The notes under the pieces were generated by a model. The model worked only from the letters and a program-made list of their open reading frames with translations, did no database searches and was not told where the DNA came from. A DNA stretch of 64,000 nucleotides from the NCBI GenBank assembly GCA_016191165.1, contig JACPPF010000046.1, forward strand, positions 19,912-83,911, written 5' to 3'. Below are positions 36,972 to 59,909 of the stretch, in pieces. A program made the translations under genes and the position numbers. Source of the stretch: Planctomycetota bacterium (GTDB lineage: Bacteria; Planctomycetota; Planctomycetia; Gemmatales; Gemmataceae). Numbering within the stretch: position 1 is the stretch's first letter; each line of letters begins with the position of its first letter.

Positions 36972-37020
36972 GAATCTTGTATCCGACCGGCGCAGGCCAT
37001 CCCTAAGGAGCCCACCACCC

Positions 37021-39292: not shown

Positions 39293-41968
39293 TCAGTTGA
39301 TGGTGTAGATGAATTTCCCATCCGGCGAACCCGCGACGTGGACCGAGGTGATTGCCGTGCCTTCGACCGTACGGTTCAAGATTTCGCTCGCCATCTCCGG
39401 CAGCATCGTGCCGGTCAGGATGTGGTCCACGTTGCGAGCGCCGCTTTCCACTTCCTTGCATCGGCTCGTGATCGTCGTCACCAGGCTGTCGTCGTAGGTG
39501 AAATCGGCGCGGTGGTTCTCCTTCAAGCGGTCGCCGATCTTCTTCAGTTGCAGCTTCGTGATGTTCTGCAACATCTTGTCATCGAGCGGGAAATACGGCA
39601 CGATCGTGATACGGCCAAGCAGGGCGGGCTTGAACGACTTGAGCAGGTCAGGCCGCAGCGCCTGAGCAAGCGTTTCCGCATCGGGCTTGGTGTCGGGATC
39701 GGCACAGAGTTTCATGATGGTGTCGGTGCCGACGTTGGATGTCAGGATGATGATCGTGTTCTTGAAGTTGATGTCGTTGCCCGACGAATCCTGAAGCATG
39801 CCCTTGTCAAACACTTGATAGAAGAGCTCCTGAACGTCAGTGTGGGCCTTCTCGACCTCGTCGAGCAAGACGATGCAATAGGGTTTGCGGCGCACGGGAT
39901 CGGTGAGGGCGCCGGGCTCGCCGTAGCCGACGAGGCCCTTGGCGGAGCCGGTGAGGTTGGAGATTTTGTGCGATTCCTTGTATTCGGACATGTTGATGAT
40001 GACCATGTTGCGGTCGCCGCCGTAGAGGATATCGGCGAGTGACATGGCGGTTTCGGTTTTACCGACGCCGGACGGGCCGACGAGCATGAAGACGCCGATG
40101 GGCCGGCGCGGGTCGGTGAGGTTGGCGCGCGAGGTGCGGATGCGCTGAGCGATCGCCTCCAGGCCATGGTCCTGGCCGATGACGCGCTCCGCCATGCGGT
40201 CCTTGAGTGACAGAACGGCCTGAATCTCGTTGCGCACCATCTTGCCAAGCGGGATGCCGGTCCAGCCGGACACGACCGCGGCAATCGCCTGGCCGCCGAC
40301 GACGGGCAGCACCAGCGGGTCTTCGCCTTGCACCTCCATCAGCATCTTTTCGGCCTTGTTGAGTTCGGTGCGCGTTTCGAGTTCCTGGTCGCCGGTCAGG
40401 CGTTCCTTGGCGTCGGCCTTGGCGACCCGATGCGCGTCGAGCTTGGCGGCGAGCGCTTGCACTTGCTCGGCGAGTTTCTTTTCTTCCTCCCAGCGTTTTT
40501 CCAGCGCGGCGAGGTTCGCGGCGATGGCGGTCTTTTTCTCGTTCAGGTCGGCGGCGCGTTGCTTGTGATCGACGCCGTGGCTCGTCTCGCGGTCCAGGGC
40601 CGTGAGTTCGACATCGATGCGTTCGACATCGCGGCGGGCATCCTGGATGGCGGGCGGAATCGATGTCTGGCTCAGCGCGACGCGAGCGCAGGCCGTGTCG
40701 AGCAGGCTGACTGATTTGTCCGGAAGCTGACGATCCGTGATGTAGCGATGCGAGAGCTTGACGGCTTCCTCGACGGCCTCATCGAGAATGCGGACCTTGT
40801 GATGTTTTTCCATGGTGGCGGCGATGCCGCGCATCATGGCGATCGCCTTGGCGATGTCGGGCTCATCGACCTTGACGACCTGAAATCGGCGTTTGAGGGC
40901 GGGGTCGCCTTCGAAGTATTTCTTGTACTCCAGCCAGGTGGTCGCCGCGATGGTGCGCAATTCGCCACGGGCCAGGGCGGGCTTGAGCAGGTTGGCGGCA
41001 TCGCCCTGTCCCGCCTGGCCGCCGGCGCCGATCATGGTATGGGCTTCGTCGATGAAAAGGATGATCGGGGTGGGGGACGACTTCACTTCCTGAATGACGG
41101 TCTTCAGGCGATTCTCGAATTCGCCCTTCACGCCGGCGCCGGCTTGCAGCAAGCCGAGGTCGAGCGTGCGCAGGACGACATTTTTGAGAGGCGGCGGGAC
41201 ATCGCCGGCGACGATCTGTAGTGCGAACCCTTCGACGACCGCCGTCTTGCCGACGCCTGCTTCGCCCGTGAGGATCGGGTTGTTTTGCCTACGACGCGTC
41301 AGGATGTCGATGACCTGGCGAATCTCGAAGTCGCGGCCAATCACCGGATCGATCTTGCCCTGACGCGCCTGCTCGGTGAGGTTGGTCGTATATTGGTCGA
41401 GCGCTGGCGTTTTGCTGTTCGCCACCGCTCCCGGACTGCCACCGGTGGCACCGGGGCCGGCGGCAGGGCTGTCGCTGACGTCGTATTGATCCTCATTCAT
41501 TCCTTTAAGGAGGGTCGGCGCATCCTTGACGAATTGCTCGGCCGGGATTTTCGCGAAGCTCGGGCAGGCATCGAGCAATCGCCGCGAGAGTGTGGCATTT
41601 GCGAGCAAGGCGGCGACGAGGTAGCCGGTGCGGACCTTGAATGATTGGCAGTTGAGGGAGGTCACGACCCAGCCTTCACGCAGCCAGTCGAGGATGTCGA
41701 CGGACAGTTCGGGCGCCCGCGAGTTGCCGGTCTTGAGCTTGTCGAGCGCCTTGGTCAATTCGCGGACGGCGGCGCCGGTCTCGACGTCGTATTGTTTGAA
41801 GATGCGCGGGATATCGGAATCATTCGCTTCGATCATCTTCAACAAGAAGTGCTCAATCTCCACGCTGTAGTTGGTGCGCGACAGGCAGAGCCCGGCGGCG
41901 CTTTCGAGAGCCCGTTTGCACACGGGATTCAGTTTGCCGACCAAGGTTTTCAGGGGAAGCGAGGCCAT
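39293..41968 (-). CDS. clpV: Type VI secretion ATPase ClpV (TssH)
   Basis: An 891-residue AAA+ disaggregase. The ATG at 41968 (MASLPLKTLVGKLNPVCKRA) with GGAG upstream is preferred to the GTG at 41980. The N-terminal Clp repeat region (VEIEHFLLKMIEAND) is followed by AAA-1 (Walker A GEAGVGKTAVVEGFA, Walker B IILFIDEAHTMIGAG, and TLDLGLLQAGAGVKGEFENRL, characteristic of the ClpV class), a coiled middle domain (about 410-530) and AAA-2 (GPSGVGKTETAMSLADILYGG with MVIINMSEYKESHK). ClpV recycles contracted TssB/TssC sheath. It is the last gene of the minus-strand T6SS run tssB-tagJ-tssF-clpV, separated from tssF by a palindrome. Confidence 0.95.
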   Translation of the reverse strand: MASLPLKTLVGKLNPVCKRALESAAGLCLSRTNYSVEIEHFLLKMIEANDSDIPRIFKQYDVETGAAVRELTKALDKLKTGNSRAPELSVDILDWLREGWVVTSLNCQSFKVRTGYLVAALLANATLSRRLLDACPSFAKIPAEQFVKDAPTLLKGMNEDQYDVSDSPAAGPGATGGSPGAVANSKTPALDQYTTNLTEQARQGKIDPVIGRDFEIRQVIDILTRRRQNNPILTGEAGVGKTAVVEGFALQIVAGDVPPPLKNVVLRTLDLGLLQAGAGVKGEFENRLKTVIQEVKSSPTPIILFIDEAHTMIGAGGQAGQGDAANLLKPALARGELRTIAATTWLEYKKYFEGDPALKRRFQVVKVDEPDIAKAIAMMRGIAATMEKHHKVRILDEAVEEAVKLSHRYITDRQLPDKSVSLLDTACARVALSQTSIPPAIQDARRDVERIDVELTALDRETSHGVDHKQRAADLNEKKTAIAANLAALEKRWEEEKKLAEQVQALAAKLDAHRVAKADAKERLTGDQELETRTELNKAEKMLMEVQGEDPLVLPVVGGQAIAAVVSGWTGIPLGKMVRNEIQAVLSLKDRMAERVIGQDHGLEAIAQRIRTSRANLTDPRRPIGVFMLVGPSGVGKTETAMSLADILYGGDRNMVIINMSEYKESHKISNLTGSAKGLVGYGEPGALTDPVRRKPYCIVLLDEVEKAHTDVQELFYQVFDKGMLQDSSGNDINFKNTIIILTSNVGTDTIMKLCADPDTKPDAETLAQALRPDLLKSFKPALLGRITIVPYFPLDDKMLQNITKLQLKKIGDRLKENHRADFTYDDSLVTTITSRCKEVESGARNVDHILTGTMLPEMASEILNRTVEGTAITSVHVAGSPDGKFIYTIN

Positions 41969-42006
41969 GTTATTCTCCACGTTTTTGGTGATGAGTCAAA
42001 TTACCT

Positions 42007-42086: not shown

Positions 42087-43937
42087 TCAAAGCAGCGGAA
42101 TCTCGCCCGTTCGCGCGGGCCATTTTCGCAGCGGCGCCAGCGGCGTGTTGACAATTAACTCGGTGAACGAGTTTGAGGTAGCGTATAGACTCAGGAAGCG
42201 ATTGAGGACAGCGCTAAACAAAAAAGCACCGCGCAGCGGGAATTTGGTCGGGTCCAGTTCCACGGTCACCTCGACCCCGCGGCACAGGCCTCGCTTCGGA
42301 TCGCTTGGCACCCGGCCCAGGACGCGGCGGTAGTTGACATCGAGAAGGCCTTCGACGATTTGCAGGGCCTGATCCTTCAGATGCTTCTGTCCCGCCGCGG
42401 GGTCCGAAAAGTCGTAGAGCTTGAGAATATCCCGCAGAGCGGCCCGGCCGGGTATCCCTTCTTGCAACGACAACGGGTTGGGGGATAGATGCGAGATCAG
42501 CTCCCAGGCGCCGCCGGTGCGCGCCGCGGGGCGCAGCGGCGGCGTAGGGAAGCGCAGGCATTTCACTTCGCACGGGGCAGGCACGTCCAGCGTCCAGCCA
42601 ATCGCCGGGCGCGCGGCGGCGATGCGCGACGGCAGGTCGCGGTTCATGCACAAGATTTGCACGTCCAGCATCTCGTCGCTCGGCCAGCGCGTTTCAAAGT
42701 GGAGATTCACCAGGGCGAGATCGACTTCCGTGCCCGTGTCGTCTTCTTCCAGGGAACGTTGACGCGTCGTGTACCAAAAAATCCGTCCGCCGCGCGTGCC
42801 CTGGGCATGCTCCAGCGCGTAGAACGGCGGATAGTCGGTCGTGCGGTTGGCTGTCGGGTCCGTGCTGGTCACCTTCGTCACCGCATAGACCTCGAAGGAT
42901 TTCGGAGACATGCGGTCGGCCACGATGCGATACGCCGCCTGTCGCGGCCGAAGCGGGATCGGCTCAACCGTCTTGTCAAACAGATTGACCACCGGCGTGC
43001 AGCCAAGCCGAAACGTTTCGGTGTTCACGCCCTGTTCGAGAGCCTTGGAGGTATTCTTGCAAAAGATGTACACGTCGCACTTTCGACCCAGACCGGCGCG
43101 GTTGGAAAGTGTCTGCCAGCCTGTGAGGTCGATGAATTGAAATTTTGCGGGGAACGTGAAAAACTCGGTAAACAGGCGATAGCCCATGCGAGCATTTTCA
43201 GAATAGGGGAGTAATCCCTCCGCGGGCCCAAATCCAACGGAGTGTAGAGAGTTTTCAGGGTTCAGGGCGACGGGGGTGTTGCTCGTGGCGGCCTTGTCGG
43301 GCACGAAAACAACCTGGATCGCGTCGTTAAGAATGATCTCGTACAGATCGGGGACGAGTTGCGGATCGCCGTGCAGAAACAAGCGCAAGGCATCGATCTG
43401 AAGTTGCGCGAACGTCAACTCGCCCACGCATTCGAGTTCCAACCGAACCGCGGCCACGGCGCCGGCGGGCGGTTGCAACCCGGAAGGGAACGGCGGCGCG
43501 CGAAAGCTCGCTCGATTCAAGCGGATCGGCCACAACCTCACCGGGTAGGCGGTGCGAAACTTGCACGCGATCGGCTCGGTAGCCGCTTCGATCAGGCTGC
43601 CGCGGTCGATCAGGAAACCGCCTGGCATTTGAACGCGGGCCGGGTCGCTCTCGAATTGCAGCAAAGCCATGGACGGAATCGGCGCGAGGAAGTGCGGATA
43701 AAGGAACTGCAACAGGCCGTCGGTGAGTTCAGGATATTCGTCCTCGATCTTGGCGTGCGTGCGGCCGGCCAGGAGCGCGAACGTTTCGAGCAAGCGTTGG
43801 ACGTAGGGGTCGGAACTGCCGGTCGCCTCGATGCCGAGTCGCTGGGCCGCGTTGGGATGACGCCGCGCGAACTCCTGGGTTAGCAGGTTGATGTAGCGGA
43901 GTTCGCGCTCGTAGTAGGGGAAGAGGTGGTCGATCAT
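42087..43937 (-). CDS. tssF: Type VI secretion baseplate protein TssF
   Basis: A 616-residue protein of the TssF (VasA/ImpG) family, a component of the T6SS baseplate wedge that normally pairs with TssG. The N-terminus MIDHLFPYYERELRYINLLTQEFARRHPNAAQRLG and the following VQRLLETFALLAGRTHAKIEDEYPELTDGLLQFLYPHFLAPIPSMAL are hallmarks of the family. Later landmarks are FPAKFQFIDLTGWQTL and the C-terminal CRGVEVTVELDPTKFPLRGAFLFSAVLNRFL. Length agrees with known TssF (about 600). Unusually, no tssG follows; clpV comes next after a palindrome. Confidence 0.95.
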   Translation of the reverse strand: MIDHLFPYYERELRYINLLTQEFARRHPNAAQRLGIEATGSSDPYVQRLLETFALLAGRTHAKIEDEYPELTDGLLQFLYPHFLAPIPSMALLQFESDPARVQMPGGFLIDRGSLIEAATEPIACKFRTAYPVRLWPIRLNRASFRAPPFPSGLQPPAGAVAAVRLELECVGELTFAQLQIDALRLFLHGDPQLVPDLYEIILNDAIQVVFVPDKAATSNTPVALNPENSLHSVGFGPAEGLLPYSENARMGYRLFTEFFTFPAKFQFIDLTGWQTLSNRAGLGRKCDVYIFCKNTSKALEQGVNTETFRLGCTPVVNLFDKTVEPIPLRPRQAAYRIVADRMSPKSFEVYAVTKVTSTDPTANRTTDYPPFYALEHAQGTRGGRIFWYTTRQRSLEEDDTGTEVDLALVNLHFETRWPSDEMLDVQILCMNRDLPSRIAAARPAIGWTLDVPAPCEVKCLRFPTPPLRPAARTGGAWELISHLSPNPLSLQEGIPGRAALRDILKLYDFSDPAAGQKHLKDQALQIVEGLLDVNYRRVLGRVPSDPKRGLCRGVEVTVELDPTKFPLRGAFLFSAVLNRFLSLYATSNSFTELIVNTPLAPLRKWPARTGEIPLL

Positions 43938-44008: not shown

Positions 44009-44791
44009 TCAGGCCGGGAACTCCAGTTTGCGCCAATCAAGGAGGCTCATTTCTTCGTCCCCGACGAAGAAGATTTTCACACCGACCCCGCGAACAGGGG
44101 AGTCGCCGCGCCAGTCGGTCAGCCGGCCGAGTTTCAGTTGCGTGTCCGTCTCCTTCTCCGTGCCTGGATAGAGAGCGGGCAGAAAAACCGAGCCGGCATC
44201 GCCCTGTCGCATTTCCAGGTGGGCCGGGATCCACAAGAGATCACGCGGAAAACGCGGCGCGTTCATCGTCAGCATCTGGATCTGCTCAAAAGGAACCCAG
44301 AAATAACGGCCCTGTGAAAAAACTTCCAGGACGGAACCCAGGCAATCGTCGCCGTCGCGCAGCGAGTCGAACGGCTTGCCGTCAAGCGTTCCCTTGAGTT
44401 CGGGTAATGCATCGTTCGCCTTGGCAAACGCCGCTTGCGCCTCGGCGGGCGCGTTATCGGCGAGTTTGAGCAAGCCCAGCAGACGGTCGCGCACATGCTC
44501 CGGCGGCTCCATCAAGAACTCCGGCTGGACCTTGTTGCCAAAGACCTCCCGCCGAGAACGTTCCGCAGCCAGGATTTTGCGATAATCGAGTAGCGCGGTC
44601 GCGATTTCGGGTTGATCGGCCTGCATGGCGTCGATCTGTTTCTGAGCGCGGTCCAGGTCGCCGGAAAACGCGAATAATTCAAAGAGAAAAAGCCGGGCGC
44701 CCTGATCGATGGGTTTCGCCTTCACGACGGCAATCTGGGCATCGATGGCCTCGGCGAGTTTTCCGGCCTTGTAGAGTTGATTGGCATCCAT
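44009..44791 (-). CDS. tagJ: T6SS accessory protein TagJ (ImpE/SciE family)
   Basis: A 260-residue protein. N-terminal TPR-like helices (MDANQLYKAGKLAEAIDAQIAVVKAKPIDQGARLFLFELFAFSGDLDRA) and a C-terminal domain ending with FLPALYPGTEKETDTQLKLGR and VGVKIFFVGDEEMSLLDWRKLEF match ImpE/SciE (TagJ). In systems that encode it, TagJ binds TssB and ClpV and helps sheath recycling. Its position between tssB and tssF agrees with this. Cytoplasmic; no signal or membrane segment. Confidence 0.9.
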   Translation of the reverse strand: MDANQLYKAGKLAEAIDAQIAVVKAKPIDQGARLFLFELFAFSGDLDRAQKQIDAMQADQPEIATALLDYRKILAAERSRREVFGNKVQPEFLMEPPEHVRDRLLGLLKLADNAPAEAQAAFAKANDALPELKGTLDGKPFDSLRDGDDCLGSVLEVFSQGRYFWVPFEQIQMLTMNAPRFPRDLLWIPAHLEMRQGDAGSVFLPALYPGTEKETDTQLKLGRLTDWRGDSPVRGVGVKIFFVGDEEMSLLDWRKLEFPA

Positions 44792-44895: not shown

Positions 44896-45405
44896 TTACT
44901 TCGCTTCTTCAGCAGGCTTTTCCTTGGCGAGCGCGTCCATCGCTTTTTGGGTATTGCTGAGCACGTCGGCGAGCAATTCCTCGACCTTGTCATTGCCTTC
45001 CATTTTCGACTGAAGGTAGGTTAGCCGCTGCCGCATTTCCAGCAGTTCCTTGAGCGCGGGAATCTGCGCTGCGACCTGGGCGGGTTCGAAATCGTCCAGG
45101 TGTTTGAAGTTCAATTCGACCGCCAGCTTCGAATCCTCGTCGGTGAGCTTGTTTTGCACTTTCATGGCGACGCGGGGCGTGGCGCCGGCGAGCACATCGT
45201 TGAAATTGTCTCTGTCGATCATGACCATCTTGCGGTCCTTGAGTGGTTTCAGCGGCGCCTTGGGCGCGCCGGACAGATCGGCGAGCACGCCCACCACAAA
45301 CGGCAGCTCCTTCTTTTCCATGGCGCCGCCGGTCTCCACATCATAGGTGATTTGGACGCGCGGACGCCGTACCCGATCCAGTTTCTTTTGTTGACTCTCC
45401 GCCAT
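44896..45405 (-). CDS. tssB: Type VI secretion sheath protein TssB (VipA/ImpB)
   Basis: A 169-residue protein. The ATG at 45405 (MAESQQKKLDRVRRPRVQI) has GGGAGG upstream, whereas the track start at 45492 adds unrelated residues. Family landmarks are RVQITYDVETGG, ELPFVVGVLADLSG, FNDVLAGATPRVAMKVQNKL and LNFKHLDDFEPAQVAAQIPALKELLEMR. TssB forms the contractile sheath together with TssC. TssC, normally the next gene, is not present in this window, which is the most striking gap of the locus. It is the first gene of the minus-strand run and faces tssK across a 269-base regulatory region. Confidence 0.94.
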   Translation of the reverse strand: MAESQQKKLDRVRRPRVQITYDVETGGAMEKKELPFVVGVLADLSGAPKAPLKPLKDRKMVMIDRDNFNDVLAGATPRVAMKVQNKLTDEDSKLAVELNFKHLDDFEPAQVAAQIPALKELLEMRQRLTYLQSKMEGNDKVEELLADVLSNTQKAMDALAKEKPAEEAK

Positions 45406-45587
45406 GATGAACCTCCCGGGCCGATGGGATCGGCCGAAACCTGTTGAATTCGCCAAAAAAACCATGACTTTCGTTGACGACTGTCCTAACATCGAAAATG
45501 CGTGACCGGTATTTTATCGGCGGTGAAATGGTATAACAGGGAAATCTGGCGTTTTTTCAAAAATTGTGTGCCGCACCCAATATCCGC

Positions 45588-45638
45588 GCCCGAAGCGTGA
45601 GCGAAGAAACGCCAATCTCCTTCGCTTACGCTTCGGGC
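45588..45638. repeat. Family A palindrome, copy 6, in the tssB-tssK divergent region
   Basis: GCCCGAAGCGTGAGCGAAG and a complementary arm ending CGCTTACGCTTCGGGC form a stem of about 18 bases with one mismatch, 37 bases before the tssK start. It would lie in the tssK leader. Confidence 0.9.
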
Positions 45639-45674
45639 TCAGACGATCACGAAAAACACACGACGGAGGGACTC

Positions 45675-47108
45675 ATGGCGTCACTTGGAGTGTATTGGCA
45701 CGAAGGCATGTTCCTGCGGCCCCACCACTTCCAGGCCGCGTATCGGCACACCGTGGACCACAATCGGCGCAATCACCAGTGGGACGTTCACTACAACTGG
45801 GGCCTGCGTTCCATGGACCTCGACGAGGACGCGCTGCGAAATCATCGGCTCGTCATCCACGCGCTGGAGGCGCGCCTCCGGGACGGCACGCCAGTGATCG
45901 TCCCGCGCGATGGATTACTGCCGGCCCTCGATTTGCGGCCGGTGTTTCAGGACAAGGAAGCGAGGCAATTCTACATTCGGCTGGCCGTGCCCGCGCTGGC
46001 GTCGGGCCGGCGGAACCTGTCAGTCGATCCGGATGCGCGCATACGCTACTACCAGGACCTGGCCGAGATGGAGGATGAAAACAACGGCGGGAACCCGCAG
46101 CCGGTTCCCGTGCGCATGTTGAACATGCAGCTAATGGCCGGCAATCAAGACGCGACGGGGTACGAGACGTTGCGGATCGCCCGCCTGGAAAAGTCCGCCC
46201 AGGCGGACGCCGGTCCTCAACTCGACCTCACCTACATCCCGCCGCTCCTGAGTTGTGACGCGTGGAAGCCGCTGTCCAACGGCATCCTCCGCACTCTCTT
46301 TGACCGCTTGACCATCAAGATCGACTGGCTGGTCCAGCAGATTGCCACGCAGGGCATCACTTTCGATCGGCAAGCCCCCGGGGATGCACTGGTGTTGAGG
46401 CAACTCCAACAACTTAACGAGGCGAGCGCCACACTTGGGATGATCGCCGCCGCGCCTGGCGTGCATCCCTTGTCCGCCTTCATGGAACTGAGCCGGATTG
46501 TCGGCCAGCTGGCAATCTTCGGCGCCACCCGGCGTCCGCCCGATCTGCCGCGCTACGATCACGACGATCTGGGAACCTGTTTCACGGACATCAAACAGTA
46601 TCTTGACAGGCAACTTGACATTGTCCAGGAGCCAGAATACAAGGAACGCCCCTTCATCGGCGCCGGGCTGCGAATGCAGGTCAGCCTGGAGCCAGCCTGG
46701 CTGGATGCGGCGGCCCAAATCTTCATCGGCGTGCAAACCAAAAACCTCGATGCGCCCCAGTGCGTGTCCCTCTTGACCAAGGCGGGCCAACTGGACATGA
46801 AAATGGGTAGTTCCGATCATGTTGACGAGTTATTCCGGCAAGGCGCGGCGGGCCTGCGTTTTTTGGCCGAGCAACTGCCTCCCGCCGCTCTCCCCAAGGT
46901 TCCGGGACAGGTATATTTTCAAGTCATGGCCGATCCCAAGAATCCGGAATGGGTAAACGTGAAAAACTCGCTGTCGCTGGCCTTGCGTTTCAACGAAAAC
47001 CTCATCGTGGGCGGCATTCAGAACCAGCGCAGCCTCACCGTAAAGACCCAGGGGCGCAATGTGCCGATTCAGTTTTCGCTCTACGTGTTGCCTGGAAAAA
47101 AAACATGA
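45675..47108 (+). CDS. tssK: Type VI secretion baseplate-membrane adaptor TssK
   Basis: A 477-residue protein. The ATG at 45675 (MASLGVYWHEGMFLRPHHF) follows GGAGGG; the track start at 45564 runs through a palindrome. The opening VYWHEGMFLRPHHFQAAYRH is the diagnostic start of TssK (ImpJ/VasE). Further landmarks are GLRSMDLDEDALRNHRLVI, PLLSCDAWKPLSNGILRTLFDRL and the C-terminal QVYFQVMADPKNPEWVNVKNSLSLALRFNENLI. TssK links the baseplate to the TssL/TssM membrane complex in known systems. Here the next two genes encode large membrane proteins with caspase-like domains and not TssL/TssM. Confidence 0.95.
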   Translation: MASLGVYWHEGMFLRPHHFQAAYRHTVDHNRRNHQWDVHYNWGLRSMDLDEDALRNHRLVIHALEARLRDGTPVIVPRDGLLPALDLRPVFQDKEARQFYIRLAVPALASGRRNLSVDPDARIRYYQDLAEMEDENNGGNPQPVPVRMLNMQLMAGNQDATGYETLRIARLEKSAQADAGPQLDLTYIPPLLSCDAWKPLSNGILRTLFDRLTIKIDWLVQQIATQGITFDRQAPGDALVLRQLQQLNEASATLGMIAAAPGVHPLSAFMELSRIVGQLAIFGATRRPPDLPRYDHDDLGTCFTDIKQYLDRQLDIVQEPEYKERPFIGAGLRMQVSLEPAWLDAAAQIFIGVQTKNLDAPQCVSLLTKAGQLDMKMGSSDHVDELFRQGAAGLRFLAEQLPPAALPKVPGQVYFQVMADPKNPEWVNVKNSLSLALRFNENLIVGGIQNQRSLTVKTQGRNVPIQFSLYVLPGKKT

Positions 47109-47206: not shown

Positions 47207-47234
47207 TTGCATAATGGTCGGCTCCCGGTATAAT
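47207..47234 (+). promoter_or_regulatory. Predicted sigma-70-type promoter of the caspase-vWA gene
   Basis: TTGCAT, a 16-base spacer and a perfect TATAAT precede the 1641-residue gene, with transcription expected to begin about 55 bases before its ATG. It suggests the giant gene can be expressed independently of tssK. Confidence 0.5.
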
Positions 47235-47296
47235 TGGCACTTGACCACAACCACGACATTTCCGTTTCTCGCACGCTATTTCGCAAGGGTAACGTC

Positions 47297-50200
47297 ATGC
47301 CTGAAGCTCCCACGCCCGACTGGCGCGACAGTGGCAACACTCCCGCCCAGACCCCCAGCGCCAAACCCTGGCAAGCCGGCGCGACCAGCGCCGAGGCGGG
47401 CCCCTCGGCCATGCCGTCGAAACGAAGCTTCAAACGGCTCTTTGCCGTGGTCGCGCTATTGGGCCTGGCCGTCGGCATCGGCGCGGTCGTCTATTGGTTC
47501 CGCCCCATCAAGCCGGCCTGCCTCGTCCTCGTTGGGTCCGGGTATGAAACCAACCTCCTTCTGCCTCACAACGTCCACGGCTGGAACAGCCTGCATGTCC
47601 TCGAAAAAGCAGTCTCACAGGGCGGCGAACTCCCGGATCTGTGGCGTTTCTTCACCCAACCCACCAAGATGCGCCGCGTCGGCGCCGAACCCGTCGAGCT
47701 AAAAGAAGCCAACTGGCGAGCCGTGTGGGACAAGCTCGGCATCGCCAACTACGAGGAAAAGACCGTCATGGTCTTCCTGTCCGTCCACGGGGCTGCCGAT
47801 GCGAAGGAAGCCTACCTCCTGCCCAACGTCCCCGGCAAGCAAATGTTGGAATCCTTCGATCAAAGCCGAATTCCGTTTCAAGAGGTTCTCGACAGCCTGA
47901 AGGCGGTCAAGGGCAAGAAGATTGTCCTCCTCCTTGACGTCTGTCATGCGCCGTTCGATCAGAACACGGGGATGTTGCACAACGATTTCGCGGAGCGTTT
48001 GAAGACCAAGTACGAAAAGGAGATTGAGGCCACGCCTCACCTGGCGGTGATCTGCTCGGCCGACACGGATCAACGCTCCTGGGCCTCGGATGAGCTGCAA
48101 GCCACTGCCTTTGCCTATTACGTCATGCAGGCGTTGAAAGGCGCCAACCATGGCAAGGACGGCAACGTCACGGCGGGGAGTTTGTTTGACTACGTGAAAG
48201 ACAAGGTGGCAACCTGGGCGCGGACCAACCGAGCCAGAAGCCAGACGCCGTTTTTGCTGGGCGGGAAGGATCGCGCCGATGGGATGGACCTCGTCCATAT
48301 TGCCGAGCCGTATGTCGAGCCGGCGCCCCCGTCGGCGCCGCTGAACCTCGACGCCCTGGCGCCGGAATGGGAAAAATGGAAGAAACTCAAACGGGAGAAG
48401 GCGCCGCACGTTCACAATCCGCACCTGTGGCGCTTGTACCAGGACACGCTGCTGCGCTATGAGCAACTCCTCCGCGCAGGCGATCCGACAGGCAAAGCCG
48501 CGGCCAGCCTCAAGCCAAGCCTCGAAAAATTGAACAGCGACATCGCCGCCAGCCGTTCTCTCGATGGCGCATTCCCCTGCATGGTGAACAGCTTCCCGTT
48601 GTACCGCGTCCTGGGGTTCCAGCCGGCGCCTGACCTGAATGACAAGGCTCTCAACATCTTCCTGACCGATTTTCGTAATCTCGCGGATCAAAAAGGCAAG
48701 GAGGAGGAAAAGAAGAAGCTGTTGACCTTTTTCCGGGACAAATCCATCCAGGTCAAGCAATACGTGCGAGTTCGCGTCAACCAGATGCTGTTGAAGGATT
48801 GGCAAGCCAACGCCAGCCCGGACCAGGCCAAACGTAACCGCGAACAAGGGCAGGATCGCCTGGCGGAAATCGAAGATTATTTGGTTGCGAAGCAACGGCC
48901 CGTCGAAATGCAACTCGTGAAAATGCTCAGGGACGTCGACCCGGAGATGCCCGAGGAGGTCATTCAGGCCGCCCTGGCGGTTCGCGTTCTTGCCGAGGAG
49001 GTGGCGTTGAGCGCGATGGCGGACGCGGATTCGGCCGAGCAGCCGAGCGAACTTTACGCCGAGGTCATTTTCCCGTGGGTTCGCGCCGGCGTCGAGGCGG
49101 CAGATAAAAGTCGTCGGGAAGGTGAAGATTATCTTTTTGGCGATCCCAAGCTCCACGGACCGAAGGCGAAGGCGAAGTTCGCTGAGGCGAAGAATCTTTA
49201 TGAAAAGGCGCGCGCCATGGCCCAGAAGCTTCAGGTTGCCCTGGCGGTGCGCGATGAGGTTTCGGCGGATTTGCCCTACTTTGCCACGTGGCTGGCGAGA
49301 AATCCACCCCTGCCGGATGCCGACCGGGCCGATTTGGGGGAAGCCCTTGAGAAGTTGAGCGTCGGGCTGGCCAAGTTGAACCGCGCTCTGGATGCCGCGG
49401 ACCGGGCAGAACTTCCGGCGCCGGACCTGGCGCGGCAGGCGGCCAGCGACCTCAAGTTTTTGCGCGAACGCTTTCAGGATGTAGGCGATAACTTGCGGAC
49501 CGTGGCGGCGCAGCAGAAAAACTGGCATGCTCTCGATGCGGCCCTTTCGGCGCCGCCGTCCGGCGCCCGCGACGACGTCGCCCTGCGCAAGGGTTTGCTT
49601 CGCAAACTGCGGGACATTTCCAGCGCTTTGCTCTTGAACCCGAACCCCGATGGCCGCATCGAGGAGGAAGGGTCCGTTGAACAACGAGTCAAGCAGCGGC
49701 GCGAACTGGCCCGCATTTCACTCAAGGCGTTTGACGACCTCGGGAACCCTGACAAGGAAAACACCGACGCCCAGCTCCGCGATTTCTTCCTGAAGGCCCC
49801 GGGATCCATCGTCGCCAAGACCGTTTTGGCCGGCGGCGAGGGCGCGGACCTCGTTCGGGCCGCGAATCTGTGCCGGGTAATTCCGGGCGGTTATGCCGAT
49901 TTCGTCAAGGACGATACGGGTCGGCGGATCAATCCGCTTGACCGACTGCGTCGCCTGCGCACCCACGCGCTCCTGCTTGGCCTTGCCGAGCGGACCCTCG
50001 GCGACCACTGGTTTGAACCTGGAATCAAAAAACTCGACCCCTACTATCAAGTCGCGGGGAAGGATTACCTCAAGGCGGCACGCGGGCTCTTTGACGACGA
50101 GCCGATCCCCGACGCACTCGTGAAAAAATCAAACAGCCTCAACGAGAAACTAATCCTGACCGAACTGAAACTGGGCAAACTCGGCACCCGGCACTGGACG

Positions 50201-52222
50201 ACCGAGTCGGATTTCGATCTCCCGTATCACGTGACCGCAGACGACGGGCTGCCCAGAGGAACGCCGATGATCTGGTTGAAAGTGGGCAGCGAGCCGGCCA
50301 AAAAATCCGGCGGCCCACGCAAAGAAATGAAGACCTGGCCCAAATTCAGCGACGCCTTCCCGCTCGGTCAAATCGACATTCCCGCGACCGGCGCCGCGCA
50401 AGTTGAGCTGAATGCCTACTACCGCGGGCAACATTTGCGGCAGGATTCCCCCTACGAACGGCTGGAGCCGAACGTCATCGTCCGGCACGCGCCCGCGCTG
50501 GAGGCCAACACGCGCCTCGCGGTGCGCATGGATTCCAAATTCGATTACGGCGCCATCAGCATCGTGCTTGACAACTCCGGCAGCATGAAATACCGCCATC
50601 CCCGGGAGGGGGGCAAGGACGATTACGCGAACCGCAAGGCGAATCAGCGCCGGCGATTCGATTTCGCACTCGACGCCCTGGAGCACGTGCTGCGAAAGGT
50701 CCCCGAAAACACCTACCTCAGCCTCTTCACCCTGGGCGACAAGAAAAACCGGGTGCCCGCGCTCTATCGCCCGGCCCGGCGCTGGCGCCAGGAGGAATTC
50801 GACGGGTTGCGCAAGGAACTGGCGGAAATCCCTGCCGACATCGGCTCACCGATCGCCGAGGCCGTGATCAAGAGCATGGCGGAAGGCTTCCCCGAAGGCA
50901 AGTTCCGGGGTCCCAAGGTGATTCTCGTGCTCACCGACGGCGACGACAACGGCTCGTTTTTCAAGGAAGAAGGCAACCGCACCAAGCGCATCGTTGCCGA
51001 ACTCAAGGCCGCCAACGCGAAACATCCCGACATCGCGGTCGTGGTCGTATGTTTCATCAAGAAGGACGCCGACGAAAAAGCCAAGAGCGAATTTGAATCC
51101 GCCAAGGCTCAATTTGGGTGCGTCGAACAATTCAAACGTCCGGGCCGCTTCACCGACCAGCCGGACGCGGAGAAGCTCGGCACGACGATCGAAGAGATGA
51201 TCCGGCCGCGCGTGCAGCTACTTCGCCTGGCGGAACAGGATCCCATCAAGGGTTTCGAGGTCGGGTATCCGATCAACTATCACTTCGACAAGACCCTGAA
51301 CTGGATACCGGCCCGGTCAGGTATTTTCAACGCCCACGTCCTGCGGACTTCCGCCAACCCGCTAGTCAACGTGCAGATTCTGCCCGGGCAAAAAATGTTC
51401 ATGGTTCTTAATCGAACCGACGAGGATCTCTCACTCAAACGCGGACTGCTCGCCTTCCAGCCCGAAACGATCAAACGGGGGGAATGGCGCCGGGAGAAGG
51501 AAGGCTGGGTGGTTTCGCTTTTGGAAAACGAGCATCCCGGTCTGGGCAAAGGCATGTTGAAGCAGCTGCTGGCTTTTGAGAAGTTGAAGGATGACAAGGA
51601 TCGCATTCGTCAGCCGGTTCCGGGGCTGACGTGGATCGAGCTCGACGCGGTCAAAAGCGCGTTGCCGAACCAGACCTTGCGCATGTGGCGGGACTGGGAC
51701 GTGCCGGCGCCCGCCATGCGTTTGGAGATTCGCGACTGGGTGGTCGGCGTACAGCCCAAGGTTGCCGCCTGGTTTTGGCCTGGCGATCGCGATAGCCTCC
51801 TGGCCAACACCAAACTGGTCACACGCAAGCAGGTGCCGGTGCCGCTTGCCCGCGAATCGGGTGGCGACGCAGTGGAGCTTCCCGTGATCGAAGAGGTCAA
51901 CTGGAAGGAACGCAACATCGAGGTCGCCTCCGGCGGCACGAAAAAGGAATTCTGCCTCATGGTGCGCGTTCGCCATGCCAGGGGCAAGCCGGTCTGGGTC
52001 GATCTCGAAACGCGCGAGCCAGGCAACGGTTCCGAACATCACTACTTCCACAAGGCCGACAGTTGCACCACCTATTTTTACGGCATGGAAAAACCCACGA
52101 CCGCCCGCCTGGTCCTGATCGATTTGGCCGAGTTCAAGGGCGTGGCCGAGGGCGTGGCGATGTCGCCGGATGTTGTCATTCAGGCGCCGCCCATTTTCCT
52201 CAACCAGGCACGGAAGGATTAG
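47297..52222 (+). CDS. Giant membrane protein with caspase-like protease domain and vWA domain
   Basis: A 1641-residue protein from the ATG at 47297 with AAGGGT upstream. A proline-rich tail of about 40 residues leads to KRSFKR and one membrane helix (about 49-67, FAVVALLGLAVGIGAVVYW); by the positive-inside rule the rest lies outside the cytoplasm. About residues 75-330 form a caspase-like (peptidase C14/metacaspase) domain: VMVFLSVHGAAD gives the catalytic His (about 164) and IVLLLDVCHAPF the catalytic Cys (about 216). A long helical region follows. Near residue 1090 a von Willebrand factor A domain begins, with the MIDAS motif LDNSGSM and VLTDGDDNG. The C-terminal 350 residues are beta-rich and unrecognised. 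It stands where tssL/tssM might be expected after tssK. Function and cleavage targets unknown. Confidence 0.8.
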   Translation: MPEAPTPDWRDSGNTPAQTPSAKPWQAGATSAEAGPSAMPSKRSFKRLFAVVALLGLAVGIGAVVYWFRPIKPACLVLVGSGYETNLLLPHNVHGWNSLHVLEKAVSQGGELPDLWRFFTQPTKMRRVGAEPVELKEANWRAVWDKLGIANYEEKTVMVFLSVHGAADAKEAYLLPNVPGKQMLESFDQSRIPFQEVLDSLKAVKGKKIVLLLDVCHAPFDQNTGMLHNDFAERLKTKYEKEIEATPHLAVICSADTDQRSWASDELQATAFAYYVMQALKGANHGKDGNVTAGSLFDYVKDKVATWARTNRARSQTPFLLGGKDRADGMDLVHIAEPYVEPAPPSAPLNLDALAPEWEKWKKLKREKAPHVHNPHLWRLYQDTLLRYEQLLRAGDPTGKAAASLKPSLEKLNSDIAASRSLDGAFPCMVNSFPLYRVLGFQPAPDLNDKALNIFLTDFRNLADQKGKEEEKKKLLTFFRDKSIQVKQYVRVRVNQMLLKDWQANASPDQAKRNREQGQDRLAEIEDYLVAKQRPVEMQLVKMLRDVDPEMPEEVIQAALAVRVLAEEVALSAMADADSAEQPSELYAEVIFPWVRAGVEAADKSRREGEDYLFGDPKLHGPKAKAKFAEAKNLYEKARAMAQKLQVALAVRDEVSADLPYFATWLARNPPLPDADRADLGEALEKLSVGLAKLNRALDAADRAELPAPDLARQAASDLKFLRERFQDVGDNLRTVAAQQKNWHALDAALSAPPSGARDDVALRKGLLRKLRDISSALLLNPNPDGRIEEEGSVEQRVKQRRELARISLKAFDDLGNPDKENTDAQLRDFFLKAPGSIVAKTVLAGGEGADLVRAANLCRVIPGGYADFVKDDTGRRINPLDRLRRLRTHALLLGLAERTLGDHWFEPGIKKLDPYYQVAGKDYLKAARGLFDDEPIPDALVKKSNSLNEKLILTELKLGKLGTRHWTTESDFDLPYHVTADDGLPRGTPMIWLKVGSEPAKKSGGPRKEMKTWPKFSDAFPLGQIDIPATGAAQVELNAYYRGQHLRQDSPYERLEPNVIVRHAPALEANTRLAVRMDSKFDYGAISIVLDNSGSMKYRHPREGGKDDYANRKANQRRRFDFALDALEHVLRKVPENTYLSLFTLGDKKNRVPALYRPARRWRQEEFDGLRKELAEIPADIGSPIAEAVIKSMAEGFPEGKFRGPKVILVLTDGDDNGSFFKEEGNRTKRIVAELKAANAKHPDIAVVVVCFIKKDADEKAKSEFESAKAQFGCVEQFKRPGRFTDQPDAEKLGTTIEEMIRPRVQLLRLAEQDPIKGFEVGYPINYHFDKTLNWIPARSGIFNAHVLRTSANPLVNVQILPGQKMFMVLNRTDEDLSLKRGLLAFQPETIKRGEWRREKEGWVVSLLENEHPGLGKGMLKQLLAFEKLKDDKDRIRQPVPGLTWIELDAVKSALPNQTLRMWRDWDVPAPAMRLEIRDWVVGVQPKVAAWFWPGDRDSLLANTKLVTRKQVPVPLARESGGDAVELPVIEEVNWKERNIEVASGGTKKEFCLMVRVRHARGKPVWVDLETREPGNGSEHHYFHKADSCTTYFYGMEKPTTARLVLIDLAEFKGVAEGVAMSPDVVIQAPPIFLNQARKD

Positions 52223-52303: not shown

Positions 52304-54955
52304 ATGGCCGATGACGCTCGTTCCGGGGCCGGGGATCGCCGCTGGCAGAACCAGGCCGGCCCGGCTGCCGGGCCGGCGCGCGGCATGAGCCGCCGCTTCT
52401 GGTTGACCCTCCTCGCCGGCCTGTTCCTCGTGTTCTTGACTGTCCTGGTCGTTTGGATTCTCGCCATCCGGCCCCCGCCGCCCCCTCCCTTCTACCTCAA
52501 CATCAGCATTGGCGAGACCAACTCTCGCAAGTATCCCGTCATTGGATTCACCCGGCAAGATTATGAGCGCATCCGACGTCACTTCCCCCAGGGAACGCTG
52601 GCCGAAACCAAGACCAAGGAACTGCTTCAAAAAGAACTGAAGGGGCTCTCTGACAAGGCCGACCCGATCATCATTCACATCACGGCCCTGGCCCTTGCGC
52701 GCCAGGAAAAGGTCTTTCTGTTGCCAGGCGACGCCAGTCCGGATGATCAGGCGACCTGGCTGGACGTTGGCGACGTCTTGAGCGCCGTCGCCGCCTGTCC
52801 GGCCAAGAACAAGCTGTTGATCCTTGACCTCGCGCACCCGATTGCCGATCCACGCCTTGGTGCGCTGGCGGACCGCGTGGCCGAGACCCTGGAAAAACAA
52901 ATCACCGATGCCAAGCCGAGTTTTTTCGTGCTCCTTCCCTGTTCCGCCGGCCAGATCTCGTGGAGGTCGGAAGCGCTTCAGAGTTCGGTATTGGCCTATT
53001 ATCTGGACCAGGGCTTGCTTGGAAATGCCAACACCGACAAGGATCCGCACGTCAAACTGCGCGAGCTGGTCGCCTTCCTTGAGGCACGCGTGGATCGGCG
53101 CGTTCAGACAACCCACGCCGCGAGGCAAAAGCCTCGCCTGTTCGGTGATGCCGAGGACTTTGTCATGGTAAGTCCTCCCAACGACCCGCTCGAGGAAATC
53201 AAGCCCGGTGATTTGGCGCCCTTTCCGGCGGTCCTTCAAAAAACGTGGCGCGAACGCGATGCGTGGTGGGCCAAGGGGGCCTATCGACGCGCACCGCGGT
53301 TCTTGCGGCAACTGGAGGCCAACCTGTTGCGGCAGGAGTCGCAATGGCGTGGCGGGATTCTCCACGAAAAAGACCTCGAGGCCCATGCGGATGATCTTCA
53401 GTTGCCCAGGAATGATTTGGCCCGCGCTCTGAATGTGCCGCGCGTGCCGCGCCGGTCCGTGGCCCTGGCGTTGAAACAGAGTCTGAAAGCAGCGGACGCC
53501 AGTCTGGGTGATGCCGCGCTCAATATCCTGGCCAACACCAAGTCGGTCGATCCAAAAAAGAAAGAACTCAACGCCAAGGTCGAGGAGGAGCTGATCAAGA
53601 AGTTGAAGGAACCCAAGGGCATCGAACTGCCGCAGCAAATGTCGGCCATTCTGGAAGCGCTGGAGCGCATGCCGCGACTGTCGGCGGATCATTTTCGAGT
53701 CGCGCGCGCCGTGGCGCGGAAGTTGTCGCCCGATGCGTCCTACGTGGAGTTGATCTATCTGGATCGACTGATCGCCTTCGCCGACCGCAAGGGCGATGAC
53801 GCCTGGCATGAGAAAAAGATTCTGACGTTGCTGCAAACGATGCGTATGCGTGAGGCCGCCGTGGCTGGGCTGGACAGCGAACCGGAACTGCTGCCGTGGT
53901 TGCACGGCGCGATCGAGGAAGCCGACTCCCTCCGTGTGGCGAGCGAAAAGAAACTGCTCTGGGAGGGCATGTCAACCTGGGACGACGCGTTCGCTCGGCT
54001 TCAGACTGCCAAGGGGAAATACAAGGACGTTCTGTTTGCCTTCGAGATCCTGCAGCGCTCCCGTGTGCAACTCGATTTGGCGTTTGCCGACCTGCCTGCT
54101 CACCGCGATCTGTTGTGCGACGCGTCGGGACTCGACGTCCTTGCTGAACAGGCCTGGACCCGGGCAAGCCAGGAAGCCGAGACGCTGCAAACCTACTTTG
54201 CGTCGCCGCCAATGCGGGACAAGAAACAGGCCGATCAGGGCAAGGCGACGCTGGATCTCGACACGCCGGCGCGAGAGCTGGAACGCCATCTGCGCTTTCT
54301 GGCCAAGAGCATTGAACGCCAGATCGACCTCGCCGCCAAGGACGACACGGCCGAATCGGTACAGCGCCGCTTGCTGCTGCTGGATTCAACCTTGTTGACG
54401 GCGGCGCAACACGCGACCCTGTTTGCCAGGCACCGCGCGGTTGCCGCCAAGCTGAACGAGGCGACCGACGAGTTGGATAACGACGATAACAAAAAAGGCG
54501 TCGTGACCCCTCTACCCCCGGCGGTGCGGCGCGACCAGCCCGCCACGCGCGGCTTGATGCGGGCGCGCATGTCGTGGGCGCTATTGCGCCTCGCGGGAAC
54601 GAAGGCCGGCAAGGAGAAACCGTCGCTTCCGCCCGCGACTGGCCGCATGGATACGCTCGCCTGGGCCGAACTCGAACGACGCATGCAAAAAGCCTGGTCC
54701 AGGGACCTCGTGGACCCCGGGAAAGAAAAGCTGACGCCGTTCCGCGCCGACGCCTTCAATCGCCTGGTCTCCCCGTGGGAACTGGAACGGTTCGAGAAGG
54801 ATCCCAGTGTCGTCGTGCAGACCCGCTATCGCGACGCCTTTCGGGCTTGGCTGCATGAACGCTATCGGGCCCAAGCCACATTTCTTGAAGGTGGGCGCGA
54901 CACCTCCTTGCACGCATTTTACGCTGACGCGGCACGCGAACTGAACGCGCGGTGA
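52304..54955 (+). CDS. Membrane protein with degenerate caspase-like domain (pseudo-caspase)
   Basis: An 883-residue protein 81 bases after the caspase-vWA gene. Residues 30-55 (RFWLTLLAGLFLVFLTVLVVWIL) form a single membrane helix after a basic N-terminus, followed by a polyproline stretch. About 60-290 follow the same strand pattern as the caspase domain of the neighbour: IIIHITALALARQEKVFLLPGDA aligns with its VHG...YLLPN segment and LLILDLAHPIAD with LLLDVCHAPF. The catalytic Cys is replaced by Ala (about 177) and the His-Gly pair is not kept. A later NDPLEEIKPGDLAPF begins about 590 mostly helical residues of unknown fold. No vWA domain. It probably arose from the same ancestor and may act as a binding or regulatory partner of the active paralogue. 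Confidence 0.75.
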   Translation: MADDARSGAGDRRWQNQAGPAAGPARGMSRRFWLTLLAGLFLVFLTVLVVWILAIRPPPPPPFYLNISIGETNSRKYPVIGFTRQDYERIRRHFPQGTLAETKTKELLQKELKGLSDKADPIIIHITALALARQEKVFLLPGDASPDDQATWLDVGDVLSAVAACPAKNKLLILDLAHPIADPRLGALADRVAETLEKQITDAKPSFFVLLPCSAGQISWRSEALQSSVLAYYLDQGLLGNANTDKDPHVKLRELVAFLEARVDRRVQTTHAARQKPRLFGDAEDFVMVSPPNDPLEEIKPGDLAPFPAVLQKTWRERDAWWAKGAYRRAPRFLRQLEANLLRQESQWRGGILHEKDLEAHADDLQLPRNDLARALNVPRVPRRSVALALKQSLKAADASLGDAALNILANTKSVDPKKKELNAKVEEELIKKLKEPKGIELPQQMSAILEALERMPRLSADHFRVARAVARKLSPDASYVELIYLDRLIAFADRKGDDAWHEKKILTLLQTMRMREAAVAGLDSEPELLPWLHGAIEEADSLRVASEKKLLWEGMSTWDDAFARLQTAKGKYKDVLFAFEILQRSRVQLDLAFADLPAHRDLLCDASGLDVLAEQAWTRASQEAETLQTYFASPPMRDKKQADQGKATLDLDTPARELERHLRFLAKSIERQIDLAAKDDTAESVQRRLLLLDSTLLTAAQHATLFARHRAVAAKLNEATDELDNDDNKKGVVTPLPPAVRRDQPATRGLMRARMSWALLRLAGTKAGKEKPSLPPATGRMDTLAWAELERRMQKAWSRDLVDPGKEKLTPFRADAFNRLVSPWELERFEKDPSVVVQTRYRDAFRAWLHERYRAQATFLEGGRDTSLHAFYADAARELNAR

Positions 54956-55534: not shown

Positions 55535-56731
55535 TCAGTTGCGCGCCAGGCGACGAAAGAGGATCAAGCCCGCGAGCAGCATCAGGGCATTGGCGTCGTG
55601 CAGGCCCAGCCAGGCCGGGATTGTGCCCGAGCGAGACAGGTTGATCGTGCAAAGCAACAGCGGGTAGTAAAGGGTAACAATCGGCAAGAAGCAGGTGACG
55701 AAGGCGCTCAGGAAATCGCTTTTGCTGAACCAGATGCCGACCGGGCACCCAATGAGCGCGAAGAAAAAGCAACCCAGGGCGAACGCGGGACGCTGGTTTC
55801 TTTCGTTCTCGATGCTCAAAATCTGAAAGCGGAGGTTCTTGCTTTCGTTGGCAAGACTGCGGATGTGCTCGACGAAATGAGCAGCGCCGACGCCCCGGGC
55901 CAGGGCGTTCTGGTGGAAAGCGATCTGCTCATCAATGCGTTCCTTCTGCTGAACGTGTTTTTCCTTATACGACGTCAATTCCGACCAGGCCATGTCGGTG
56001 GCGCGCTGTTTATGCTGCGAGCCGTCCATTTCGCCCGGCAATTCCATGGGCCAGGTGTGCTTTTCCAAAACGCCGATGCTGTTTTGCTGAATGAGGTGGC
56101 AAAATCGCATATGCACAAAAATACAACGCTGATCGAGATCGACCTGAAGCTCTGCCTCACGGGCCTGGGCCACGATCTCGTATCCTTTGCCGGGCGCGGC
56201 GCGCTTTTTGAAAATTACGTCATGAAGGATTCGGCCGCGGACGTCCTTGACGTCAATTTCATAGCGCAGCCTGGGCAGGTGGATGCGACCATCGCGCCGC
56301 AAAAGGCTATAGAGAGTTTCCTCAACATCAACGCCGCTCTGATTGCGGAGAACATGTTGGGAGTAGGGAATCAGATCGAGACTGATCCACAACGTCGCTG
56401 CGCTGGCGGCCGCGCCCAGGAGCAACGCGGGCCAGACCACCTGAATGATGTGAACGCCGGAGGCCTTGAGCGCCAGGATCTCATTGTCCGCGGCCAGGCG
56501 GCCGTAGACGACGCACGTGGCGAACAGGGTCGCGGTTGGGACGGTATAAGGCAAGAGACTGGGAAGCAGGAGCGGAATCAACGCGGCGACCTGTGCCGGA
56601 CTCAGACCGGTCTTCATCGCCTCGGCGACGACGCCAGCGACCAAGATCAATCCCGTCAGCGCCACCAGCGCCAGCGCGAAGACCTTGAGCAACTCGGCCA
56701 GGATCATGCGGTGAAGTCTACCCCAGAACAC
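55535..56731 (-). CDS. LptF/LptG-family permease
   Basis: A 398-residue membrane protein. It begins MFWGRLHRMILAELLKVFALALVALTGL, the usual first helix of LptF/LptG (YjgP/YjgQ). The family pattern of three N-terminal helices (including LLPSLLPYTVPTATLFATCVVYGRLAADNEILALKASG) continues through a beta-rich periplasmic domain (about 120-300) to three C-terminal helices (FALGCFFFALIGCPVGI, FVTCFLPIVTLYYPLLL, ANALMLLAGLILF). These permeases extract lipopolysaccharide from the inner membrane with the LptB ATPase. Whether it is LptF or LptG is unclear. The companion permease and ATPase are not in the window. It lies just downstream of the AsmA-like gene on the same strand. Confidence 0.9.
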   Translation of the reverse strand: MFWGRLHRMILAELLKVFALALVALTGLILVAGVVAEAMKTGLSPAQVAALIPLLLPSLLPYTVPTATLFATCVVYGRLAADNEILALKASGVHIIQVVWPALLLGAAASAATLWISLDLIPYSQHVLRNQSGVDVEETLYSLLRRDGRIHLPRLRYEIDVKDVRGRILHDVIFKKRAAPGKGYEIVAQAREAELQVDLDQRCIFVHMRFCHLIQQNSIGVLEKHTWPMELPGEMDGSQHKQRATDMAWSELTSYKEKHVQQKERIDEQIAFHQNALARGVGAAHFVEHIRSLANESKNLRFQILSIENERNQRPAFALGCFFFALIGCPVGIWFSKSDFLSAFVTCFLPIVTLYYPLLLCTINLSRSGTIPAWLGLHDANALMLLAGLILFRRLARN

Positions 56732-59700: not shown

Positions 59701-59909
59701 AGGCCAGTGACCTTGATGAAGCCCAACACATGAAGTTGAGCCGAATCGACGCTGACGTGGGCACCGGGAAAGACGATGCTGAGTTGAGCGATCACCTGCT
59801 CGCGCACGGCCGCGGCGTTGGTCCAGCGTTGATACGCGACAGCGCCGACGGCGCAGGCGCCGACGATGCCCCAAACGATGCCGCGGACAATCCATTTCCG
59901 CAACGCCAT
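56790..59909 (-). CDS. AsmA/YhdP-like giant envelope protein
   Basis: A 1039-residue protein with one N-terminal membrane helix (about 8-26, VRGIVWGIVGACAVGAVAY) and an extended periplasmic body. The start (VREQVIAQLSIVFPGAHVSVDSAQLHVLGFIKVTGLRF) and the repeated beta-strand segments (LRGRIPL-like turns, GKLHLYGSFDRRTN, SGKGEFDLGSRKLALD) are typical of AsmA/TamB/YhdP proteins, which form a long hydrophobic groove between inner and outer membranes and move phospholipid. The C-terminal part shows VYPMWGRVEQLLPPIVRPLPTTLSKNLLTVEVRGKVSGNPKDLRF, matching the AsmA-like C-terminal domain. Clustering with an LptF/LptG gene fits a joint role in outer-membrane assembly. Confidence 0.85.
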   Translation of the reverse strand: MALRKWIVRGIVWGIVGACAVGAVAYQRWTNAAAVREQVIAQLSIVFPGAHVSVDSAQLHVLGFIKVTGLRFTRRDDPGRHEFLHVPSAIFYHDKEKILEGELKLRKIELIRPRLRVRRGRNGKWNVQGLTRPPTGDVLPPLPALVIHHGILIIEDRSDPAKATMLEINDIGVTLVNDPLPRIAVRGAANSDLMGKLHLYGSFDRRTNESHLSFRARQIPLTHNLLARLPVNCPAEFLVGLQLSARADVEGKVSFHPSQAQPWYYDIHCEIKDGSVEHPRLPLPLVGLQVKAHCNTGTLRLESLTAHSGKTEIVAHGVGQLPRIDQEFEVHLDLKHVQLGEKLAKRLPIKFSDLHKLFDPNGPTTIHIDCARHEGQWVPLASGEPSQVSLRPEFISLAFKGFPYPLERAKGDVDYNLLTKFVRVDLTAQAGDRPVILQGHWNGEKADADVRFDIRADNIPIDDKLLKSLPPMLKDVVRSFNATGKFDLRSHIHKDPGKPFRNEFHIHVHDATVKWDQFPYPLDKVSGFVDIYPEHWEFHDFQGIHKGGHVLLNGKSIPRVENGEKTFGISLEITGRNISLDNALRDALHKMPQMYNAWDTFNPTGQLFFTAAIERPSPDLNDLDVQLDARGCTAKPRFFPYSVQDISGKFRFRKMRLEIAKLRARHDKALIALERGTVDLHPRGGYYAKFDELQMQGLRFDEEFIQALPGKLKSAAQALRLNDALRVKTKLIIAQPPETGKPPDVYWDGQAWLYGAAFTTGLEFSNVTGTLACIGRYDGRQIVGVDGNVVLDRATLFNQPFKNVHAKFQMRENTPDVLLIGLRAPIYSGDITGQLRVEFNSALRYEMNLTASQINLAEFGRHNLGPKSQLSGAASARLYLSGLASGHDSLEGNGSIDIPRGHLYNLPFLLDLLKFLGLHWPDRTAFEEFHAGFAVQGSKVNVQKLDLLGSAISLSGKGEFDLGSRKLALDVYPMWGRVEQLLPPIVRPLPTTLSKNLLTVEVRGKVSGNPKDLRFRMKPMPVIVDPILLLRDRLIGRPK

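Follow-up and report, generated by a model that had tools for sequence, protein, structure and literature searches.

Paralogous caspase-like proteins with degenerate catalytic dyads as candidate subunits of a planctomycete type VI secretion system envelope complex

What is the function of two adjacent caspase-like genes that stand beside type VI secretion system (T6SS) genes in a planctomycete of the family Gemmataceae, when only the first of them specifies an intact catalytic dyad? Both genes, hereafter A and B, are present on contig JACPPF010000046.1 (assembly GCA_016191165.1), of which we analyzed a stretch of 64,000 nucleotides (positions 19,912 to 83,911), referred to as the window (Table 1). 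A sequence-only reading of this DNA had interpreted protein B as a pseudo-caspase that had lost both catalytic residues, and had envisioned a heterodimer formed by an active protease and its dead regulatory partner. Our analysis points in another direction: A and B, together with the product of a third gene, C, are probably structural subunits of the envelope-spanning complex of the T6SS in this planctomycete lineage.

Protein B is a paralogue of the N-terminal half of protein A (BLASTP E value about 1e-13). The caspase family model PF00656 matches A above its cutoff (28.8 bits; cutoff 21.4) and B below it (E 0.029), in B over the expected region. The AlphaFold model of B has a mean pLDDT (predicted local distance difference test) of 68, with blocks of the caspase domain mostly at 60–89 and two low loops, and its top Foldseek matches are MALT1, caspase-9, CED-3 and caspase-7 (E 5e-6 to 1e-4; probability 1.00). 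The homology of B is beyond chance because the BLASTP match to A, the PF00656 region and the Foldseek matches to caspases all speak for it. Judged by its sequence and its model, B is a true caspase homologue with a caspase fold that is predicted to be catalytically dead. Raptor (7uxc_C) was also among the Foldseek matches of B. In this component of mTORC1, a helical scaffold comes after the pseudo-caspase domain, but the protein is eukaryotic and cytoplasmic and carries a WD40 domain; its likeness to B is architectural only.

We aligned the proteins encoded by orthologous loci of related genomes (31 A, 36 B) and anchored the dyad positions on presumed active caspases of the window's own genome. 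The details that had been read from the B sequence stood up in this alignment: the segment LLILDLAHP of B (Ala177) lies opposite LLLDVCHAP of A (Cys237), the His-Gly pair of A (SVHG, His185) faces TALA in B (Leu129), and the LLP turn is retained in both proteins (AYLLP in A, VFLLP in B). The expectation that orthologues of the second gene consistently lack the dyad was borne out as well, since none of the 36 B proteins carries it and neither position is conserved. Its counterpart, that the first gene consistently keeps the dyad, failed. The His residue is present in 28 of the 31 A orthologues, followed by Gly in all 30 full-length sequences, but Cys plus His occur in only three, the window's A and two near-identical copies from the same genus. 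The remaining proteins carry Thr (11), Ala (7), Ser (4), Gly (3), Val, Glu or Asp at the Cys position. Proteins from other families (four distant A and three B) follow the matching pattern, with one additional His-Cys protein among the A proteins (genome G215).

These data bear directly on the idea of an active protease A that is regulated by its dead paralogue B. The window's A has the intact His185-Cys237 dyad in the near-canonical context LLLDVCHA, and a homologue in which the dyad is never present is encoded alongside it; of the 32 loci that hold both genes, 31 have B directly following A on the same strand. This part of the heterodimer proposal stands. What does not stand is the conservation of an active A: Cys is absent from 28 of the 31 orthologues, in 13 of these 28 its place is taken by Ala, Gly, Val, Glu or Asp, and other members of the very genus clade that includes the Cys-bearing proteins have Ser at this position. 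In the tree of A, the three Cys proteins require at least two changes within this single genus clade. Furthermore, neither a substrate of such a protease nor an activation feature came to light. Since the Cys is kept in so few A proteins, a heterodimer of protease and regulator is ruled out as the conserved function, and we consider this explanation of the gene pair most improbable. An active role of A is possible solely where the dyad is kept, as in the window's genus.

Instead of the catalytic dyad, A conserves the metal ion-dependent adhesion site (MIDAS) of a von Willebrand factor A (vWA) domain: Asp1113, Ser1115, Ser1117 and Asp1235 are unchanged in 30 of 30 orthologues. This domain is part of a chain that comprises, in order, a transmembrane (TM) helix, the caspase-like domain, a helical region, a beta domain, the vWA domain and a C-terminal beta domain. 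The AlphaFold model of residues 463–1662 contains a long helical region, beta domains and the vWA domain, and the Foldseek matches of this segment were chiefly vWA domains, confirming the assignment. A scored 43.6 bits against the model of the EACC1-associated caspase (NF047832), under the curated cutoff of 140. An identity of A and B as a defence system was dropped, as the anti-phage defence models of PADLOC matched neither protein.

The genetic surroundings of A and B connect them with the T6SS. In the window the cluster order is tssH-tssF-impE-tssB / tssK-A-B, and a single contig of genome G066 carries the array tssH,F,impE,B / tssK-A-B-C-vgrG-tssA-tssC-hcp-tssE-tssF2-tssG-tssK2-tssL-short tssM. 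A tssK-L-M group is convergent with A-B-C in three genomes (G038, G088, G089), and tssKLM adjoins B-A in a further one (G052). The linkage extends to at least two further families: in the single-contig genome G199, from another family of the class, the order is tssH-vgrG-B-tssM-A, with tssM placed between B and A, and in G181, G215 and G299 (other families) A and/or B stand beside hcp, vgrG or baseplate genes. The product of gene C is a secreted, immunoglobulin (Ig)-like protein of 620–700 amino acids with a CarboxypepD_reg/transthyretin-like domain at its end. A short B (about 880 amino acids) is usually followed by a separate C, and a long B (about 1500–1630 amino acids) represents B with C fused, an arrangement present in many genomes. 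In the window's genome (G000), C lies away from A and B on another contig (C178; L125, 9384–19176), where vgrG, an adaptor-like gene and a gene for a PAAR-RHS protein come after it. The same genome encodes a second B-like protein of 1815 amino acids on contig C159 (8587–14034 of locus L035), a B+C fusion with about 300 additional N-terminal residues and with no A gene alongside.

The position of vgrG near C (G066, G000) and near A or B (G215, G299, G181, G199) could suggest a role for A, B and C as secreted effectors, or as accessories for effector loading, that travel with VgrG. However, all A and B proteins possess N-terminal TM anchors, their copy number tracks that of TssL, neither a toxin domain nor an immunity-type partner was found, and many loci have tssKLM or tssH/B/F as neighbours instead. 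We therefore give the effector explanation very little credence.

Among 95 genomes of the family, the window's included, TssL (PF09850) is present in 49. With A counted at E<1e-50, A and TssL occur together in 44 genomes (one of which, G093, rests on a B-type match) and are both missing from 43; three genomes have A only and five TssL only, so that eight are discordant (Fisher p 1e-17). Complete or near-complete genomes show the same relationship in their copy numbers: two A/B pairs accompany two TssL in G052 and G066, one pair accompanies one TssL in each of G010, G012, G009 and G094, and neither A/B nor TssL is found in G011, G071, G074, G087 and G023. One genome that is negative for A (G034) carries a B. 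The few genomes with TssL minus A or A minus TssL, and the presence of LptF/G and AsmA-like genes just downstream of B in the window, would fit an incidental T6SS linkage of proteins that serve a different envelope process. Against this stand the co-occurrence, the matching copy number and the linkage in other families, and we regard a chance association as extremely unlikely.

The T6SSs that accompany A and B are unusual in their membrane components. Canonical TssM proteins are about 1,100–1,200 amino acids long, with most of the part beyond the cytoplasmic domain located in the periplasm, and the NCBIfam TssM model has a length of 1168 positions. In every case that could be read (about 20 genomes), TssM has 445–642 amino acids and ends 1–17 amino acids past its last TM helix; the window's own candidate has 448. 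The only family above its cutoff in these proteins is PF14331, the N-terminal cytoplasmic domain, and the periplasmic domain is missing. TssJ (PF12790) was not detected in any of 18 genomes, with a positive control in Escherichia coli. TssM is also short in the three TssL-positive, A-less genomes that could be read, and a contrast in TssM length therefore lends no support to our proposal.

All 30 A and all 36 B orthologues examined by hydropathy have an N-terminal TM helix, and its N side is the more positive one in 55 of 67 A and B proteins. A short, positive N-terminus is thus followed by one TM helix and a large body, which, by the positive-inside rule, is outside the cytoplasm and probably in the periplasm. 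In their topology, A and B are predicted to supply the part that is missing from these T6SSs. A kinship of A and B with TssM by sequence or fold was considered and dropped: their profiles matched no solved T6SS structure, and Foldseek gave mainly vWA domains for A (residues 463–1662) and ranked caspases and Raptor first for B.

Paralogy, caspase folds, dyad degeneracy, T6SS linkage, co-occurrence, the cut-off TssM, the undetected TssJ and the predicted topology were all computed. A replacement scaffold is probable because A and B travel with a T6SS that is missing its usual envelope-spanning part. We lean, if only slightly, towards a new type of complex in which TssM has no periplasmic half, TssJ is absent, and the degenerate caspase pair and the Ig/transthyretin-like C form the periplasmic channel. 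A and B would dimerise via their caspase-like domains, and in the inner membrane their TM helices would attach to TssL and to the shortened TssM. The periplasm would be bridged by the helical bodies together with the vWA domain of A and the beta domains that A and C contain, and the three proteins would perform the job of TssJ and the periplasmic domain of TssM. The MIDAS of the vWA domain may bind, in a metal-dependent manner, C or a partner in the outer membrane or wall, and the caspase folds would serve assembly or scaffolding rather than cutting.

Domains of the vWA type bind ligands. With an invariant MIDAS and a close T6SS linkage, A and B could instead be envelope regulators or sensors with a role like that of PpkA or TagQRST, the vWA domain sensing contact or damage and gating firing; FHA-domain genes elsewhere in the window would suit such a role. 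No kinase, phosphatase or other signaling domain was found in A or B by domain scan, the FHA genes are not conserved neighbours across the relatives, and the presence of one A/B pair per TssL in complete genomes, together with the missing periplasmic domain of TssM, fits a core part better. Hence, a regulatory or sensory function appears unlikely, albeit worth keeping in mind.

Several points weigh against a structural role in the T6SS envelope complex. The dyad of A is intact in the window's genus, where residual proteolysis is conceivable, and the helical and beta regions of A match no TssM or TssJ structure. No A was detectable in the TssL-positive genomes G001, G029, G064 and G080; some of these genomes are incomplete, but G001 and G029 reach 90–91% completeness, and A is therefore not proven to be obligatory. 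The Fisher p value overstates independence because the genomes of the family are related, and the confidence of the AlphaFold models is moderate (pLDDT 67–68; 8–9 sequences).

Lineage-specific solutions for the T6SS envelope complex have precedents. In the T6SSiii of Bacteroidota, TssNQOPR substitutes for the functions of TssJ and TssM (PMC10781749). TssQ, TssO and TssP each have a single N-terminal TM helix and a periplasmic body, as predicted for A and B; TssR carries a vWA domain, as does A, and TssP carries periplasmic beta (PKD) domains (PMC10781749). In contrast, the planctomycete systems retain TssL and the shortened TssM, and A and B have caspase-like domains; the TssN/O/P/Q/R families were not among the Pfam/NCBIfam matches of A and B, with no direct profile comparison made. 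In Acinetobacter, TsmK, a ketoacyl-synthase fold without catalytic residues, stabilises the membrane complex of a TssJ-less T6SS (PMC10564176), a co-option of a pseudo-enzyme such as we propose for A and B, although the TsmK domain is bulky and cytoplasmic and the Acinetobacter TssM retains its periplasmic domain. With the canonical T6SSi complex TssJLM, the planctomycete systems share TssL (DotU) and the N-terminal TM and cytoplasmic part of TssM, but not TssJ or the periplasmic domain of TssM. A and B resemble the bacterial pseudo-orthocaspases (PMC6426788; PMC3501461), which are likewise homologues of caspase p20 whose dyad is substituted, and one survey reports low dyad conservation in Planctomycetes, with 64% intact (PMC3501461). 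Neither a T6SS link nor a vWA architecture is described in the accessible parts of these surveys (PMC6426788; PMC3501461), and the dyad loss reported here differs in that it affects two paralogues linked to a single machine.

Table 1. Coordinates of genes, domains and dyad positions within the window
Feature	Position	Strand	Remarks
tssH/clpV (T6SS ATPase)	39293..41980	-	TIGR03345, 1247 bits
tssF (baseplate)	42087..43937	-	TIGR03359
ImpE/TagJ-like T6SS protein gene	44009..44791	-	PF07024
tssB (sheath small subunit)	44896..45492	-	TIGR03358
tssK (T6SS baseplate)	45564..47108	+	TIGR03353, 261 bits; directly upstream of A
Protein A gene (caspase-like + vWA)	47234..52222	+	1662 aa; likely true start ATG at 47297
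A single TM helix, residues 69-87	47438..47494	+	Hydropathy; positive residues on N side
A caspase-like domain, about residues 95-345	47516..48268	+	PF00656 match at 177-339
A His185 codon	47786..47788	+	His in 28/31 orthologues
A Cys237 codon	47942..47944	+	Cys in just 3/31 orthologues
A vWA domain, about residues 1107-1290	50552..51103	+	Pfam/Foldseek; MIDAS residues invariant
Protein B gene (pseudo-caspase)	52304..54955	+	883 aa; TM helix, pseudo-caspase domain, long helical region
B single TM helix, residues 37-55	52412..52468	+	Hydropathy
B pseudo-caspase domain, about residues 63-290	52490..53173	+	AlphaFold and Foldseek
B Leu129 codon, opposite catalytic His	52688..52690	+	Alignment
B Ala177 codon, opposite catalytic Cys	52832..52834	+	Alignment
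B helical region, residues 309-882	53228..54952	+	AlphaFold model

Further features of these T6SS regions were observed. In the window's genus, tssK and tssF are apparently present twice per T6SS, with one set next to A/B and the other next to tssL-tssM (G066 contig C17, L085 and L036; G000 contig C38:83990); several other genera of the family have a single tssK for each system. Besides the normal TssC, there is a second VipB/TssC-like protein with a weaker match (PF05943, E about 1e-48; G066:C17:11747, G066:C140:14603, G000:C132:10314), encoded on G066 contig C17 just past tssH. In genome G044, two neighbouring tssM-like genes adjoin tssL and tssK (L133:1-3211). In the window, genes for an FHA protein (36970–37761) and an FHA-GAF-SpoIIE phosphatase (60648–62288), possible regulators, flank the T6SS region. 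Immediately beyond B, on the opposite strand, lie genes for an LptF/LptG permease (55535–56731) and an AsmA/YhdP-like protein (56790–59909), which relate to outer-membrane lipid transport.

Our search of the open literature, with subscription literature outside its reach, retrieved no publication that deals with the membrane complexes of planctomycete T6SSs. Broken-dyad caspase homologues of planctomycetes have been counted before; their link to the T6SS is apparently new, as no report of it was found in the open literature. If our proposal holds true, A, B and C would represent a further solution for anchoring a T6SS in the cell envelope beside TssNQOPR of Bacteroidota and TsmK of Acinetobacter, and missing T6SS parts would be named in a major environmental phylum. 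Some of the Planctomycetes pseudo-caspases would thereby gain a concrete structural role, with a caspase fold recruited into a secretion machine, and there would be reason to be wary of interpreting genes of this kind as cell-death proteases.
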